In this document: positions 28,350 through 54,363 of the stretch, piece by piece | How the letters are laid out: every line of letters starts with the position of its first letter | How positions within the stretch are numbered: the stretch's first letter is position 1 | Source of the DNA: Betaproteobacteria bacterium | GTDB taxonomy: Bacteria; Pseudomonadota; Gammaproteobacteria; Burkholderiales; SG8-41 | Reading direction: 5' to 3' | Length of the DNA: 54,363 nucleotides | NCBI GenBank assembly: GCA_900299145.1 | Contig: OMIN01000044.1 | Span: 1-54,363, forward strand | The notes under the pieces: model-generated | The model's database searches: none | What the model was told of the DNA's origin: nothing | The model's input: the letters and a program-made list of their open reading frames with translations, nothing else | Made by a program: the position numbers and the translations under genes

Positions 28350-29150
28350 ATGGCTGAATCAACGTTATACGATGTGCTGGAAGTCAGCAGTTCAGCGTCT
28401 GCCGATATCATTGACGCGGCGTATCAGCGGCTCGCCGAGAAATTTGATCCAGCGCGGGACGCCAACACCTACCGGCCGCACGCGCGCGTGCAACTGGACG
28501 CAGTGAAACAGGCCTATCTCACGCTGGGTGACGCCGAAAAACGTGCGCTGTACGACCGCAAACTGGCATTGCGCGGCGCAAGCGATCGGGCACCGGCCGC
28601 CGCGACGGCCTCCACGGCAACATTGGCAACATTGGCAACTATGGCGGCAGCACCGGCAAAAGCACCGTTCTGGAATGTGCCGAAGATGCTCATTGCCAGC
28701 GCTCTAGTGGTCGGCGTGACTGGCTTTTATTTCCAGCATCAGCACGAGCAGGCGCGCATCGAGGCGGAAAAGGTTATCGCGGTCGCCAAGGCAAGAGAAG
28801 CCGAAGCCAAAGCGCTGGCCGAAGCTGAGCAGGAGCGGCTGGCGCTGCTACGCGAACGCGATCGCGAAATGGCCGCGCGGCGCGAAGCCGCCATGGCACG
28901 CGCGGAGCGCGACGCCGACTTGCGCCAGTATCAACAAGACGCACGCGCCAACGACGCCGCCAATCGCGCGCTCGCCGCCGCCGAGCGCGAACAGGCGCGG
29001 CGCGATGCCACTTACGCACGCGCGGAAGAAACGCGCATCCGGCGCGAGGAGGCGCAAGCCGCCGCCGCGTCGCGACAACAGTTGGCACGCGACCGCGCAG
29101 AGCTTTGCCGGATCGAACGCCAGCGCTATGGCAGGCCGATATCATGTTGA
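28350..29150 (+). CDS. Membrane protein with degenerate J domain and coiled coil
   Basis: The 266-residue protein opens with a J-domain-like region (residues 1-70: 'LYDVLEVSSSASADIIDAAY', 'VKQAYLTLGDAEKRALYDRK'). The HPD tripeptide needed to stimulate DnaK ATPase is missing; the position reads 'LAEKFDPARD'. A single transmembrane helix follows ('MLIASALVVGVTGFYF'). Then comes a long Ala/Glu/Arg-rich coiled coil and a short tail 'LCRIERQRYGRPISC'. The start at 28350 follows AAGGAA. Function is unknown, and a canonical co-chaperone role is unlikely. Its stop overlaps the start of the DUF4124 gene by 7 bases. Confidence 0.8.
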   Translation: MAESTLYDVLEVSSSASADIIDAAYQRLAEKFDPARDANTYRPHARVQLDAVKQAYLTLGDAEKRALYDRKLALRGASDRAPAAATASTATLATLATMAAAPAKAPFWNVPKMLIASALVVGVTGFYFQHQHEQARIEAEKVIAVAKAREAEAKALAEAEQERLALLRERDREMAARREAAMARAERDADLRQYQQDARANDAANRALAAAEREQARRDATYARAEETRIRREEAQAAAASRQQLARDRAELCRIERQRYGRPISC

Positions 29151-29647
29151 TTTTATTGATAAATTTTCCATGCCTACGCAATGCGTTCACACGCGTGGCT
29201 TTGATGGCCTTGGCACTGCTTGCGAGTAATCCTTTGGTCGCGCAGGAGCGTAAGGCGTACAAAGTGGTGGACGCCAACGGCAACGTTACCTACTCGCAAA
29301 CCCCGCCCGTGGACGGTCAGGATGCGCAGAAGTTGAGCACCAAACCGGCGATTGTCGGGCGCGGCGGCTATGTGGGCGGCAGCGCGGGCAGTTACTCGCC
29401 CTACGACGATCCGCGCCTGTATTCAAATCAGTACGCCGGGCGGCAAGGGTATAACCCAAACTACAACGCCGCCGGTCAGCGCCAACCCACGGCGCAGGAA
29501 CAACGCTACACCGCGCTAAAGGCCGAATGCGAACGCCAGCGCGGCACGGATTGCAACAATCCGTCGACGCTACAATACATGGATTCCACCAGTGTTCCGG
29601 GCGGGCGGCGGCGGCCGCCGGCCATAAACCCCCGGCCCGGCACGTAA
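29144..29647 (+). CDS. Exported DUF4124-domain protein
   Basis: This 167-residue protein has a signal peptide ('RVALMALALLASNPLVAQ') followed by the DUF4124 signature 'KAYKVVDANGNVTYSQTPPV'. A Gly/Tyr/Asn-rich low-complexity region and a C-terminal stretch 'LKAECERQRGTDCNNPSTLQ' with two cysteines follow. DUF4124 proteins are common, small, exported proteins of unknown function in beta- and gammaproteobacteria. The ATG at 29144 overlaps the end of the J-domain gene and sits at the edge of a partial AT-rich repeat that encodes MLILLINF. Confidence 0.8.
   Translation: MLILLINFPCLRNAFTRVALMALALLASNPLVAQERKAYKVVDANGNVTYSQTPPVDGQDAQKLSTKPAIVGRGGYVGGSAGSYSPYDDPRLYSNQYAGRQGYNPNYNAAGQRQPTAQEQRYTALKAECERQRGTDCNNPSTLQYMDSTSVPGGRRRPPAINPRPGT
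29147..29167 (+). repeat. AT-rich boundary repeat, copy 9 (partial), at the DUF4124 start
   Basis: TTGATTTTATTG followed by ATAAATTTT matches the central and right parts of the repeat; the left part is not conserved. It contains the TGA stop of the J-domain gene and the first codons of the DUF4124 gene. Confidence 0.5.
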
Positions 29648-48879: not shown

Positions 48880-49044
48880 GGGCTAAAACCTTGTGTGCCA
48901 AAGCACCACGCAGATTAACAGAGCTAAAACTCACTCACGTCTTTCTGGCGCAGGCCGTAATGATGAGAAGAGGTTTTCGCTATTAGCGTAGCACATGCTA
49001 CGATGCCAGCCCTATTGCACGACTTTGCACGAATGGAGAAACCC

Positions 49045-50769
49045 ATGGTTGAACTCGAATTTTTTGACCCTGCCGGTGCGCTGGAAATCACCACGCCGCA
49101 TGCGCCGCGTCTGGACCAGATTGCCGGCAAGAAAATCGGCTTTGTCACCAACGAACAATGGCAGGCGTATCGCACGCTGCCGCTGATCAAATCCCTGTTC
49201 GAGAAGGATTTCCCCGGCGTGGAAATTCTGCCGCTCGACGCCTTCCCGCAAGGCAATGCACTGATCGGCGAGGAAAAAACCGCGATGATGGTGAAGGACA
49301 GCGGCGTCGATGCGGTGATCATCGGCAACGCGGCCTGAGGGTCCTGCGCCACTGCGTGCGGCCGTGCTGCCGCCCGAATCGAAACCCTGGGCATCCCCAC
49401 CGTCACCCTCACGCGTGCGGATTTTCGCGGTGTAATGACCAATGCCATTTCCGGGTTGGGGCTCGCGCCCGACGCGGCGATGATTACCTTTCCCATCGAC
49501 ATGTTTTTACCGGGCAGCGACATTTCCGGCATTGAGGCGCGCAAGAACGAGTTTTACGACGCGCTCACCGGCTGGCAATCGAGCCGCACCAAGGCGGCCG
49601 CTGTTCCCATGCTGAAAGTGCAAGGCGAAACGTACGAAGACGCCTTGCAAAAGGCCAACCATTTGGCCATCACCAACTTGTGGGGTGACGGCCTGCCGCT
49701 GTGGCCGGCCACACGCGAACGCGTGAATCGCATCCTGCGCGGCACACCGCTGCCACGCGCGCACGTAATCGGCAAATTCCCGCCGCGCGGCGGCATCACC
49801 ACGGTGGAAACCTGTGCGATTTCACTGGCAATGGCGGGCGGGCGGCCCGAATATCTGCCGGTGCTGGTTGCCGCGGTCGAGGCTTTTTTGCATCCCGAAA
49901 CCAATGCCGAGCAATTGCAGGCCGCCAGCGGCAGCGCATTTCCGGTGGTAGTGGTGAACGGGCCGATTGCGAAACAGATTCGCTTGAACTCCGGCTTCGG
50001 CTGCCTGGGCCCTGATCCGCAAAGGCCGGCGGGTGCTTCAATTGGCCGCGCGCTGCGGCTGATCCAACAAAACGTCGGCGGCGCACTGCCGGGCATCGGC
50101 GCCATGGCCAACTATGGCGGCATGCGCAACGTCAATCTTGTCTTCGCCGAGGACGAGGACAACATTCCCGAAGGCTGGCCCACGCACGGCACCGAGCGCC
50201 ACGGCTTTGCGCGCGAGACCAATTCCGTGTCGGTGTTTTTCTGCAATGGCGCAACCAATACGCGGCGGCGCGGTGCTAAAAAAGAGACGCCTGAAGAAGA
50301 CGCCACGCAGGGCATGTATCGGCTCGCCGATTTCATGCGCGTGCCGAACTACACGAATCTCTCGGGCTACGAAAAAGGCACGCCGGGCGCAATTCTGATT
50401 CCCGGCGTAGTTGCCAACAACATGGCGAAGCTGGGCTGGACCAAGCCGAAAATGCGCGAATTCTTTTACCAGAACTCGCGCATCCCGCAGTCGGAAATCA
50501 AGCGCAACGGCGGCACGGCGTGGATCGAGATCGATTCAAACCCGATCACACGCGACAGTCTGAAGCAAGACCCGTGGCCGATTACCTCAAAGCCGGAAAA
50601 CTTTATCGTGCTGGTGTGCGGCGGCGGCCATCCGACCAACAGCTTCTGGCTGCAGGGCTACAGCCCGCGCGTCATCGGCAAGGAAGTGCGCGTGCCAGAA
50701 ACCTTCGAGGAATTGTTGACCGAAGCCGATCGGGATCTGGGGTGTGGCGACGACGTGTGCCGCATATAG
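49045..50769 (+). CDS. UGSC-family selenoprotein, read through an in-frame TGA as selenocysteine
   Basis: The frame from 49045 (GGAG 7 bases upstream) runs 97 codons, meets TGA at 49336-49338, and continues without interruption to 50769, giving 574 residues with Sec at 98. The local protein is 'VDAVIIGNAA', U, then 'GSCATACGRAAARIETLGIP'. The four residues U-G-S-C are the hallmark of the UGSC (seleno)protein family, whose cysteine forms read CGSC. Residues 1-165 form that domain. The C-terminal 400 residues are unrecognised, with conserved-looking 'GKFPPRGGITTVETCAISLA' and a tail 'DLGCGDDVCRI' holding a possible redox cysteine pair. Coding quality is the same on both sides of the TGA. Reaction unknown; a thiol/selenol redox role is inferred. 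Confidence 0.85.
49355..49376 (+). promoter_or_regulatory. Candidate bacterial SECIS hairpin
   Basis: Just after the TGA, GCGGC (49358-49362) pairs with GCCGC (49369-49373) around a six-base loop CGTGCT whose second base is G. Two more pairs extend the stem below one mismatch. The loop begins 25 bases after the TGA, within the spacing seen for SelB-dependent bacterial SECIS elements. It was folded by eye only. Confidence 0.5.
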
Positions 50770-50779
50770 CGCGAGGGCG

Positions 50780-52240
50780 CTACTTTAGCGACCGCACCGC
50801 CCGCACATAAGCGTTGTATTGCACCGTTTCCGTGTTGCACGCACCCTCGGTGTAATACACGACCCAGCCGCGCCCTTGCGATTGGGTGTCGCTGGTCCAG
50901 ATGAAGAAAGCCCCGGCAGATTCAAACGCCGAGGCCAGATGCACCTTCGCCGCGCCGCCGCTGGTTTGCAACGGTTGACCGCCATCGGGCGGCATCATCA
51001 GTGACATGGCTTCTTCCAGCGTGGGCAGGCGCCAGTCGTCAAAGCCGCCGTAACGCTTGGCGTTGAGCGCTTGTATGTATTGTTCCGCGCCCTGCTGGCC
51101 GCCCTGCACTATCGTGCCGGAGCCACTACGTTGCCACATCAACCCTCGCACCGGGTTCACCACCATCAGGCCGCCGCCGTGCACCTGGGTTTCATATTGA
51201 TGCGGGCCGCCGCGGCCCGCCGTGTTCCAGCCGGTACGATAAAAATTCTGCGTGACGATCATCACTTTGGCATCGTCCGCAGTCACGGTCAGTGGCGTGC
51301 TGCGCAACCGCGCACCCGCTGTACGCACCTGGCCGGAGGACTGCGGCGCCAGCGCCACCATCGCAGGCTGCGGCACCACCGGCACCGGGCCGTCGGGCGA
51401 TGAACCGGCGAAATAAAACTTGCCTTCCAGCGGCGAACTCGACACCCACGGCTGCTGCTGGTTGGCGGTGGCGCGCTTGACGGCTACACCCACGTCGTTG
51501 AACACCGAAAACACATCCAGCCCGGGCGTAGCCACCGCCTTCGACAGCGCGCGGGTATACGGGCTGTGGCCGTCCACGCCGTCGGCGGCGACATTGCCCG
51601 GCTGTGTGGCATAGGCGATCAGCGTGCCTTCGGGCGCCTGCATTTGCGCAAGCCCCGTGCCGGTGGAACGCATGCCGGTGGTGGCGAACGGGTTGTTGCG
51701 GCAAGCGTCAAGGATCACCATGTTTAACCGCGTGCCGGCGAGTTCCATCTGGCGCAGCACCAGATCAACGTTGAGCAACTGAAAATCCGCGTCGGCCTCA
51801 CGCGTCGGGTTCGCGTTCACCGGCACCAGGAAATTGCTGCCGCGAATTTGCAGGCCGTGCCCGGCGTAATAAAACAGTGCGACGTTGGCGCCCTGCACCG
51901 CCTTGCCGAAGGATTGCACCACGTTTTCAAAGCCCTGCTTATCAAGATCCACATGCGCCTTGCCGCCGACCAGTGTGAAGCCCAGCGCAGCAAGCGTTTC
52001 AGCCATCAACCGCGCATCCGGCCCGGGGTTCTCGAGCTTGGGTACGGAGACATAGTCGCTGTTGCCGATGATCAGTGCGACGCGGCGTTCGATCTGTTGC
52101 GCGGGCGCATCGTGTGCCGGCAACAAAGCGAGTAGCACCGACGCCGCCCATGCCAGGAATGGCAGCGCCCATCGTTTAAGCCGTTGCTGTGATTTCGTTG
52201 CAGGTGTCACTGTTGCGAACTGCGTCATCGTGGGCATCAT
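50780..52240 (-). CDS. Exported caspase-like (peptidase C14) protein with C-terminal DUF1566-type domain
   Basis: This 486-residue protein has a signal peptide ('WALPFLAWAASVLLALLPAH') followed by a caspase/metacaspase p20 fold: 'RRVALIIGNSDYVSVPKLEN', catalytic His128 in 'VALFYYAGHGLQIRGSNFLV', and catalytic Cys180 in 'MVILDACRNNPFATTG'. A Pro/Ala linker leads to a C-terminal Lcl/DUF1566 domain: 'NPVRGLMWQRSGSGTIVQGG', 'YGGFDDWRLPTLEEAMSLM' and 'GWVVYYTEGACNTETV'. It is convergent with the selenoprotein gene, 10 bases apart. The substrate is unknown. ATG codons at 52240, 52237 and 52228 are all possible. Confidence 0.86.
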   Translation of the reverse strand: MMPTMTQFATVTPATKSQQRLKRWALPFLAWAASVLLALLPAHDAPAQQIERRVALIIGNSDYVSVPKLENPGPDARLMAETLAALGFTLVGGKAHVDLDKQGFENVVQSFGKAVQGANVALFYYAGHGLQIRGSNFLVPVNANPTREADADFQLLNVDLVLRQMELAGTRLNMVILDACRNNPFATTGMRSTGTGLAQMQAPEGTLIAYATQPGNVAADGVDGHSPYTRALSKAVATPGLDVFSVFNDVGVAVKRATANQQQPWVSSSPLEGKFYFAGSSPDGPVPVVPQPAMVALAPQSSGQVRTAGARLRSTPLTVTADDAKVMIVTQNFYRTGWNTAGRGGPHQYETQVHGGGLMVVNPVRGLMWQRSGSGTIVQGGQQGAEQYIQALNAKRYGGFDDWRLPTLEEAMSLMMPPDGGQPLQTSGGAAKVHLASAFESAGAFFIWTSDTQSQGRGWVVYYTEGACNTETVQYNAYVRAVRSLK

Positions 52241-52388
52241 GATATACAGCTTGCGGGTACCGTCAATGCCGGGCTTGCGGTAGCGTTGCGTATCCGTGCT
52301 AGCATGAATTGAATTTGGCTTGGCCGCTATCCAACCGTTGTCGCGCACATTTGTTCGGCGGCCAGCGGCTGCCCCAGCGAATACACCG

Positions 52389-52416
52389 TAACTATTTGTT
52401 TTTATTGAATATTTTA
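52389..52416 (+). repeat. AT-rich boundary repeat, copy 15, ending in a start codon
   Basis: This reads TAACTATTTG, then TTTTTATTG, then AATATTTTA, and the final A begins the ATG of the Bug gene. It is the copy closest to consensus and is oriented with the gene. Just upstream of an ATG with no purine-rich ribosome site, it forms the leader. Confidence 0.85.
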
Positions 52417-53414
52417 TGCAGCCCTTGCAGTGTGGTTCCGTCACTGGCTGGTTGCTGGCGCTGCTGTCGCCATGGGCATTCGCACAGCCCGCCGCCACGA
52501 GCACAAGTTCAGCCTTTCCGGTGAAATCCATCCGCGTCATCGTGCCGTTTGGCCCGGGCGGCCCCAGCGACTATTTGGTACGCAGCGTCGGCATAAAACT
52601 CGCAGAATCGTGGGGCCAGCAACTGCTGGTGGATAACCGCACCGGCGCCAATGGCGTGGTCGGCGTGGAACTCGCCGCGCGCGCCGCGCCCGACGGCTAC
52701 ACGCTGGTGATGGCCACCAACGGCACGCACGGCATCAACGCCAGCCTCTACAGCAGGCTGCCGTACGACACGGTGAAGGATTTTGCCCCCATCACGCGCT
52801 TTGCACTGGCGCCGTATTTGTTGATCGCGCACCCGTCGCTGCCGGTGCACGGCGTAAAGGAGTTGATCGCACTGGCGCGGCAACGGCCCGGCGAACTGAC
52901 GTGGTCGTATGGCGGCAGCCCGTCGCAACTGGCGGTGGAACTCTTCAAGAAAACGGCGGGCGTTAACTTGATCCCCGTGCCGTACAAGGGCAACGCACCG
53001 GCGATCACCGCCGCCATCAGTGGCGAAGTATCGTTGTCGTACGGCAACGTGGCGGCTTCCATGCCGCACGTACAGGCCGGCCGATTGCGCGCGCTGGCCG
53101 TCGGCAGTTTGCAGCGCCTCGCCACCGTGCCACAGATACCGACCGTCGCCGAAGCGGGCTTTGCGAACTTTGCGGGCTACGAAGCCGGCGCGTGGTACGG
53201 CCTTCTCGCGCCCGCCGCAACGCCGCGCGGCATTGTCGAACGCCTCAACGGCGAAATCACGCGCATCCTCAAGCTGCCCGACGTTCAGCAGCGCCTGCGT
53301 AACGAGGCCTACGCCATTTTCGCCGACACGCCGGAACAATTCGCCGCCGCCATCCGCGCCGAAATCGCCAAATGGGCGCCGATCGTGAAACAGGCTGGGC
53401 TGCGGGCCGAGTAA
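52416..53414 (+). CDS. Bug-family TTT solute-binding protein
   Basis: This 332-residue binding protein has a signal peptide ('GWLLALLSPWAFAQ') and the family opening 'FPVKSIRVIVPFGPGGPSDY'. It also has 'WGQQLLVDNRTGANGVVGVE', 'VPYKGNAPAITAAISGEVSL' and a closing 'EIAKWAPIVKQAGLR'. No Shine-Dalgarno is visible because the leader is an AT-rich repeat that ends at the ATG. It is the eighth Bug gene of the window and stands between the caspase-like gene (divergent) and the fimV-like gene. Confidence 0.93.
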   Translation: MQPLQCGSVTGWLLALLSPWAFAQPAATSTSSAFPVKSIRVIVPFGPGGPSDYLVRSVGIKLAESWGQQLLVDNRTGANGVVGVELAARAAPDGYTLVMATNGTHGINASLYSRLPYDTVKDFAPITRFALAPYLLIAHPSLPVHGVKELIALARQRPGELTWSYGGSPSQLAVELFKKTAGVNLIPVPYKGNAPAITAAISGEVSLSYGNVAASMPHVQAGRLRALAVGSLQRLATVPQIPTVAEAGFANFAGYEAGAWYGLLAPAATPRGIVERLNGEITRILKLPDVQQRLRNEAYAIFADTPEQFAAAIRAEIAKWAPIVKQAGLRAE

Positions 53415-54329: not shown

Positions 54330-54363
54330 CTGTCTCTTATACACATCTGACGCTGCCGACGAA
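54330..54363 (+). other. Illumina Nextera adapter contamination
   Basis: The last 34 bases read CTGTCTCTTATACACATCT (the Tn5 mosaic end) followed by GACGCTGCCGACGA, the Nextera read-2 side adapter, plus one base. This is not genomic DNA. It gives the false protein ending 'VSYTHLTLPT' in one frame and 'LSLIHI' in another. Confidence 0.98.

Follow-up and report, generated by a model that had tools for sequence, protein, structure and literature searches.

Selenoproteins with a U-G-S-C motif, and the fusion of this UGSC domain to a second domain named 'Unknown_1', were published in 2008 from ocean-metagenome data (PMC2398784, of which part was available), and the family is modeled in Pfam (PF24696) and NCBIfam (NF041046). 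The available part of PMC5330540, citing earlier work, mentions selenoproteins with the UGSC motif in actinobacteria that possess a tRNA-Sec with the anticodon CUA, which is independent support for selenocysteine (Sec) at this motif, and a table row in the part of PMC5029168 that was available gives 26 and 33 for UGSC, apparently organisms and genes. Comparable Sec sites occur in GrdB of glycine/sarcosine/betaine reductase (PF07355, TIGR01918) and PrdB of D-proline reductase (TIGR04483), in which the Sec of a U-x-x-C motif lies at a strand-to-helix junction; profile comparison aligns this Sec on that of UGSC, and a similar helix and strand follow. The locus described here resembles the published UGSC family, as far as the available sources describe it, in its domain, its U-G-S-C site and its fused second domain. 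It differs from that family in belonging to a set of 19 paralogues and to a subfamily with an extra cysteine (Cys105) and a glycine in place of the near-invariant partner residue Cys266. In contrast to GrdB and PrdB, its product has no match to the GrdB/PrdB family models and its partner domain is unlike GrdE/PrdA, the pyruvoyl partner; moreover, the genome holds 19 UGSC copies but one PrdB-like match over the PF07355 cut-off.

The window, that is the whole stretch of 54,363 nucleotides analyzed, belongs to a betaproteobacterial genome assembly (G000) of 5.5 Mb in 158 contigs, estimated to be 99.7% complete and 1.36% contaminated. An initial annotation, made from the sequence alone, had joined two apparent ORFs (49003-49338 and 49435-50769), both listed at those positions, into one frame running from a good ribosome-binding site through a single TGA to a stop at 50769. 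These facts hold: a GGAGA, the ATG, the TGA and the TAG were read in the sequence, as was the GGG TCC TGC after the TGA that yields U-G-S-C, and translation with TGA as Sec gives the proposed 574 residues with a single U, at residue 98 (Table 1). When all six frames of the window were searched, a single TGA between open stretches of at least 90 and at least 300 codons was found at two places, this gene and one that shares its sequence with a differently framed hydrolase gene as well as with a gene of the other strand. Only at this gene was a UxxC motif flanked on both sides by 60 or more open codons. Directly after the selenoprotein gene lies a gene on the minus strand (50780-52540) with caspase-like Peptidase_C14 and Lcl_C domains, and the contig ends in an untrimmed CTGTCTCTTATACACATCTGACGCTGCCGACGA (54331-54363), presumably a Nextera transposase adapter, which adds false C-termini to the ORFs there.

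Table 1. Features of the UGSC fusion gene and its product (window coordinates).
Feature	Position	Strand	Basis or remark
Ribosome-binding site GGAGA	49035..49039	+	Ahead of the ATG; read directly
UGSC/partner fusion selenoprotein gene	49045..50769	+	ATG at 49045, TAG at 50767-50769
UGSC domain (PF24696)	49063..49494	+	Pfam match
In-frame TGA, read as Sec98	49336..49338	+	Followed by GGG TCC TGC; TGA in 29/29 relatives compared
Cys101 of U-G-S-C	49345..49347	+	C in 44/44 fusions of alignment A1
Cys105, extra Cys of the subfamily (U-x2-C-x3-C)	49357..49359	+	Alignment
Candidate SECIS hairpin GCGGC-CGTGCT-GCCGC	49358..49373	+	GU loop 25-30 nt after the TGA; p 0.126 alone
C-terminal partner domain, residues 190-574	49612..50766	+	Without Pfam or NCBIfam model

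Decoding of the TGA as Sec in a Sec-using bacterium, as the initial annotation proposed, is supported by the family match described below, by the Sec machinery and by the conservation of the codon. selA (568.6 bits), selB (442.7 bits), tRNA-Sec (74.5 bits, its anticodon TCA confirmed by ARAGORN) and selD (422.6 bits, on contig 129 and with one internal TGA of its own), which that annotation had proposed to look for, are all present in G000. On contig 110, selA adjoins selB and tRNA-Sec follows at a distance of 1.2 kb, with a TrxB-like gene (231 bits against TIGR01292, below the cut-off of 343) between selB and tRNA-Sec; at the other end of this cluster (L101, 61188-66572) a UGSC fusion (L082) diverges from selA. 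Across the family, selB exceeded its cut-off in 66 of 74 genomes, the other eight having only below-cut-off matches of a kind that other elongation factors also produce. Compared codon by codon, 29 of 29 relatives (24 best matches, one per genome, and five subfamily members at greater distance) keep TGA at the Sec98 codon, and below it the differences from the close relative L019 are 158 synonymous versus 33 non-synonymous, while those from the far relatives L123 and L125 are 122 versus 163 and 124 versus 227. The close pairs thus indicate purifying selection below the TGA. Were the TGA a true stop, a sequencing error or the trace of a decayed gene, the two ORFs would be separate, a reading compatible with the ATG at 49435 of the downstream ORF and with a non-significant hairpin test for the window gene itself. 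That ATG falls within the UGSC domain, however, and the TGA at the same codon in relatives from other genomes, the selection below it, the presence of TGA at the same motif in 19 of 19 paralogues and the complete Sec machinery make this reading hardly credible.

The hairpin evidence is collective rather than individual. In 15 of the 19 genes of G000 and in 21 of 47 genes from other genomes, a hairpin with a GU loop outscores synonymous recodings at p<=0.05; five of the 47 have no hairpin, and over these 66 genes the mean score is 17.1 at the TGA versus 1.9-6.9 at eight shifted positions. This test was designed after the folds had been seen, the 66 genes are related and the 47 others represent 10 of 51 and 37 of 40 loci fetched, so the counts are not independent trials. 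Six loci for which a wrong frame or none had been picked (L039, L060, L061, L128, L147 and L162) were left out of this set and of alignment A1, and L128, L147 and L162 were read separately. The hairpin stems differ between subfamilies (GTCGTGG/CCACGAC, GCCCGC/GCGGGC and GCGGC/GCCGC), and a plain hairpin energy test was noisy, with a mean z of -1.84 for the genes of G000, -0.34 to -0.75 at control offsets and -0.64 for the 47 others. In the window gene, the 45-nt stretch has a minimum-energy fold other than this hairpin, and single-sequence folding was no better than shuffles; Rfam at gathering thresholds gave no match within the window. The hairpin is thus significant across the 19 copies and not for the window gene alone, where it is best regarded as a candidate SECIS element.

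The assignment to the UGSC family by the initial annotation held, the protein (P0001) scoring 64.6 bits against PF24696 (cut-off 25). Against NF041046, which is the narrower equivalog, it reached 40.4 bits (cut-off 125) and is therefore filed under the wider family of Pfam and not the equivalog of NCBIfam; the stand-alone copies L088 (140.6) and L090 (125.3) pass that cut-off, and the domain of L101 (56.9) does not. The initial annotation also treated the gene as a single curiosity, which it is not: PF24696 matches 19 places in G000 (with all 30 candidates scored), and exactly one TGA interrupts every copy, as the U of a U-G-S-S motif in one of them and of U-G-[S,A,T,G]-C in the others. UGSC matches were present in all 74 family genomes searched, at least 1081 in sum with up to 40 candidates scored per genome, and every family match listed carries one TGA; some of these matches are pieces of broken genes. 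Among genomes scored fully, G014 (selB, 446 bits) has 58 matches, 54 of them with a TGA, which is the sole stop in 51, and G013 and G021 have 35 and 21, respectively. Outside the family the domain was sparse, found in five of 398 genomes of a phylum sample with up to eight candidates scored per genome, one of the five being G000 (elsewhere 4 of 397). The family genomes are draft assemblies in which binning could account for some of the copy number, which is a smaller worry given the completeness and contamination estimates of G000 and of G014 (98% and 2%). Among the relatives, eight loci (L048, L054-L057, L060, L066 and L068), 70-92% identical, come from assemblies titled Bordetella parapertussis, and these titles look wrong.

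Comparison of profiles places the UGSC domain near GrdB and PrdB. A search of 80 relatives with PF07355 identified a full GrdB in G014 (P0002), whose Sec is that of V-S-T-U-G-T-C-T, as well as PrdB-like proteins that carry U-P-N-C; one of the latter belongs to G000, a selenoprotein (L189, contig 134, around 29001-29360) in which about 175 residues follow the PrdB-like part. In hhalign, alignment A1 of 44 UGSC fusions matched nine PrdB-like proteins with probability 90 and score 57.2, and the single GrdB P0002 with probability 65 and score 43.9, in both cases with Sec on Sec, while the controls reached 26.1 (best of 181 unrelated single proteins of G000), 19.5 (reversed PrdB-like profile), 18.8 (reversed GrdB) and 18.0 (TctC profile). 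The profile of the 19 UGSC copies alone (A2) gave a probability of only 31 against the PrdB-like proteins and of 73 against GrdB. Sec was written as Cys in these comparisons, so that the shared CxxC motif itself raises the scores; with that proviso, the similarity is remote, has Sec in register and lies above that of unrelated proteins. Family models did not detect it in P0001, which had no PF07355 match up to E 10 (three related fusions reached only E 0.01-0.2) and, in NCBIfam including TIGR01918 and TIGR04483, only UGSC matches up to E 0.001; on P0002 the PF07355 match itself ends at residue 355, just before Sec356. Nor is the partner domain a visible relative of GrdE/PrdA: PF09338 matched two of the 44 fusions, with E values no better than 0.16, and the near-invariant Cys266 of the partner is Gly in the subfamily of the window gene.

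In the AF2 model obtained for the window protein (pLDDT 88.9, pTM 0.90), Sec98 lies between a strand (90-96) and a helix (99-114), and in the weaker model of the PrdB-like protein (pLDDT 72.8, pTM 0.56) Sec159 lies between a strand (152-156) and a helix (162-175); neither model retrieved a PDB entry at E<=0.001 in fold searches. Taken with the profiles, these predicted structures suggest that the UGSC domain is likely a remote relative of the GrdB/PrdB Sec domain, with Sec on Sec at the strand-to-helix junction. Literature naming both groups, as far as it was available and with most subscription papers and all preprints outside its scope, did not mention such a link. The suggestion printed in 2008 that UGSC is a thioredoxin-fold protein, acting in thiol-disulfide or peroxide redox chemistry, would account for the UxxC motif; against it stand the strand-helix order of the predicted model, in which Sec follows strand 90-96, the lack of any thioredoxin among the 50 PDB fold matches listed, none of which was significant, and the profile kinship with GrdB/PrdB. 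No thioredoxin fold was thus recognized in the predicted model or the PDB fold search, and we consider this reading improbable.

The C-terminal part, which the initial annotation did not recognize, probably corresponds to the 'Unknown_1' domain that PMC2398784 describes in fusion with UGSC, judging from the part of that paper available. Pfam, NCBIfam, PHROGs and PDB sequence searches gave nothing convincing for it, with weak hits such as KHA at E 0.27 and Asparaginase_C, which was seen in 10 of the 44 members and reached E 0.00064 at best; five stand-alone partners had no Pfam or NCBIfam family, and phage records held no relative at E 1e-5. The domain is fused to UGSC in nine copies of G000 and adjoins eight of the ten stand-alone copies (L089 twice), with no partner within the stretch fetched for L092 and L096. 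With 17 of the 19 copies thus showing fusion or adjacency, a joint function of the UGSC and partner domains is supported. Elsewhere, in Halalkalicoccus, Roseovarius and Variovorax SRS16, the partner is a separate neighboring gene; Halalkalicoccus has, upstream of its pair, a further partner domain that stands alone. Without exception, the 44 fusions of A1 carry D215, G216, G306, G334, R335, N343, E369 and W378, and 24 of 24 partner sequences carry D215, T223, G306, G334, R335, E369 and G464. Position 266 is Cys in 23 of those 24 and Gly in the subfamily of the window gene. An exchange of Cys266 for Cys105 appeared clean in A1, where 16 of 44 fusions have Cys105 with Gly266 and Cys105 is missing from the remaining 28, 26 of which have Cys266. 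A check of 57 rows (many of them duplicate genes) gave 54 with Cys105 and Gly266, the exceptions being L060, a wrongly picked ORF, L128, with a gap at position 98, and L126, with Leu105 and Gly266; the pattern is therefore retained as a subfamily signature only.

Homologues differ at the Sec site, as the initial annotation had expected for cysteine forms of the family. Beside the relatives that retain U at residue 98, a chromosomal copy in G021 (L162) reads C-G-T-S, and the eight plasmid homologues opened, among 24 plasmid records with a relative, divide into five with Cys (Halalkalicoccus, two Variovorax, Roseovarius and Neorhizobium), one with Sec (Acidovorax sp. T1, L116) and two with neither (Vibrio and Sporomusa, D-M-G-T-S). 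The initial annotation would have been undermined by a genome without selB and selC together with close homologues bearing neither Cys nor Sec; the genes are present, and the two homologues opened that bear neither are distant. The Acidovorax copy, a U-G-S-C fusion with TGA, lies on the IncP conjugative plasmid p2-T1 with transposase genes nearby, and its annotated gene ends at the TGA after 96 residues, an example of how standard gene calling can cut UGSC genes at this codon. The UGSC/partner-like fusions on the Vibrio europaeus (L119) and Sporomusa termitida (L120) plasmids are located near genes for aconitase X and DUF126, which we take to be a dehydratase pair.

These observations bear on which domain holds the active site. 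The D-M-G-T-S branch cannot use a Sec/Cys chemistry of the kind proposed below, and it is among the 24 partners that keep the seven invariant residues. With Asp215, Arg335, Asn343, Glu369 and Trp378 invariant in the fusions, the aconitase X and DUF126 genes nearby and the lone partner domain in Halalkalicoccus, it could be argued that the partner is the real active site of a non-redox step (lyase, isomerase or hydratase) and that the UGSC Sec/Cys is an auxiliary nucleophile, lost in some branches. Such an auxiliary role would be costly, however, for a Sec and a Cys101 that are invariant in 44 of 44 fusions and a Sec present in all 19 copies of G000. Redox turnover is also indicated by the gene neighborhoods, since three of the eight opened plasmid copies have a TrxB-like gene close by: a trxB-annotated gene adjoins the pair in Roseovarius and lies two genes from it in Variovorax SRS16, and a TrxB-like gene (160 bits, below the TrxB cut-off of 343) lies one gene from the fusion in V. 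boronicumulans. We therefore regard a non-redox partner enzyme as rather unlikely, if a more serious competitor than the thioredoxin fold.

Many of the neighbors of the UGSC genes are catabolic enzymes, as judged from family matches. About 280 genes were predicted around the 19 copies, and 20 chosen neighbors were scanned for families; these include acyl-CoA dehydrogenase, GMC oxidoreductase, mandelate-racemase-type, MmgE/PrpD, 2-hydroxyacid dehydrogenase, CoA-transferase, amidohydrolase, short-chain dehydrogenase and Rieske oxygenase proteins as well as housekeeping genes, and three without a family. A specific tie to TctC/Bug binding proteins was considered and set aside as weak. An immediate same-strand TctC neighbor is found in nine of 19 UGSC units, but TctC genes are common genome-wide and their excess in density near UGSC is slight (56 genes in 287 kb, 0.195/kb, versus 53 in 340 kb, 0.156/kb, in 20 control regions).

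The reading we favor, by a modest margin over even chances, is a two-domain selenoenzyme related to GrdB/PrdB, in which Sec is decoded from TGA, the UGSC and partner domains cooperate, a thioredoxin system regenerates the enzyme and the activity belongs to organic-acid catabolism, with paralogues differing in substrate. The partner would bind a small organic acid or amino-acid-derived substrate through its invariant Asp, Arg, Asn and Glu, and Sec would attack or reduce this substrate. Cys101, perhaps here together with Cys105, would then resolve the selenenyl-sulfide, and the thioredoxin system would re-reduce the enzyme. Each paralogue might act on a substrate of its own. Reductase chemistry is what we infer from these sequence comparisons. 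Copy expansion, the pairing with the partner in 17 of 19 copies and the link to known chemistry turn this reading into a concrete hypothesis, namely thioredoxin-dependent reduction of small organic acids.

More tentatively, and with somewhat less than even confidence, the family may possess a modular arsenal of dozens of Sec enzymes per genome, each joining a GrdB/PrdB-type Sec domain to an uncharacterized substrate domain and placed among different catabolic genes, which would carry out thioredoxin-driven reductive cleavage of a wide range of organic acids. An expansion in UGSC copy number was not mentioned in the literature on UGSC selenoproteins as far as it was available, most subscription papers and all preprints being outside its scope. 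The largest bacterial selenoproteomes given in a review number 57 and 63, against which the UGSC family by itself supplies 54 matches with a TGA in one relative, a draft assembly. If the arsenal is real, these selenoproteomes would be among the largest known in bacteria and would lie outside the phyla usually named as selenoprotein-rich. The 19 copies in this bacterium, together with their apparent kinship with the Sec component of the glycine- and proline-reducing enzymes, suggest that many catabolic enzymes dependent on selenium await description.
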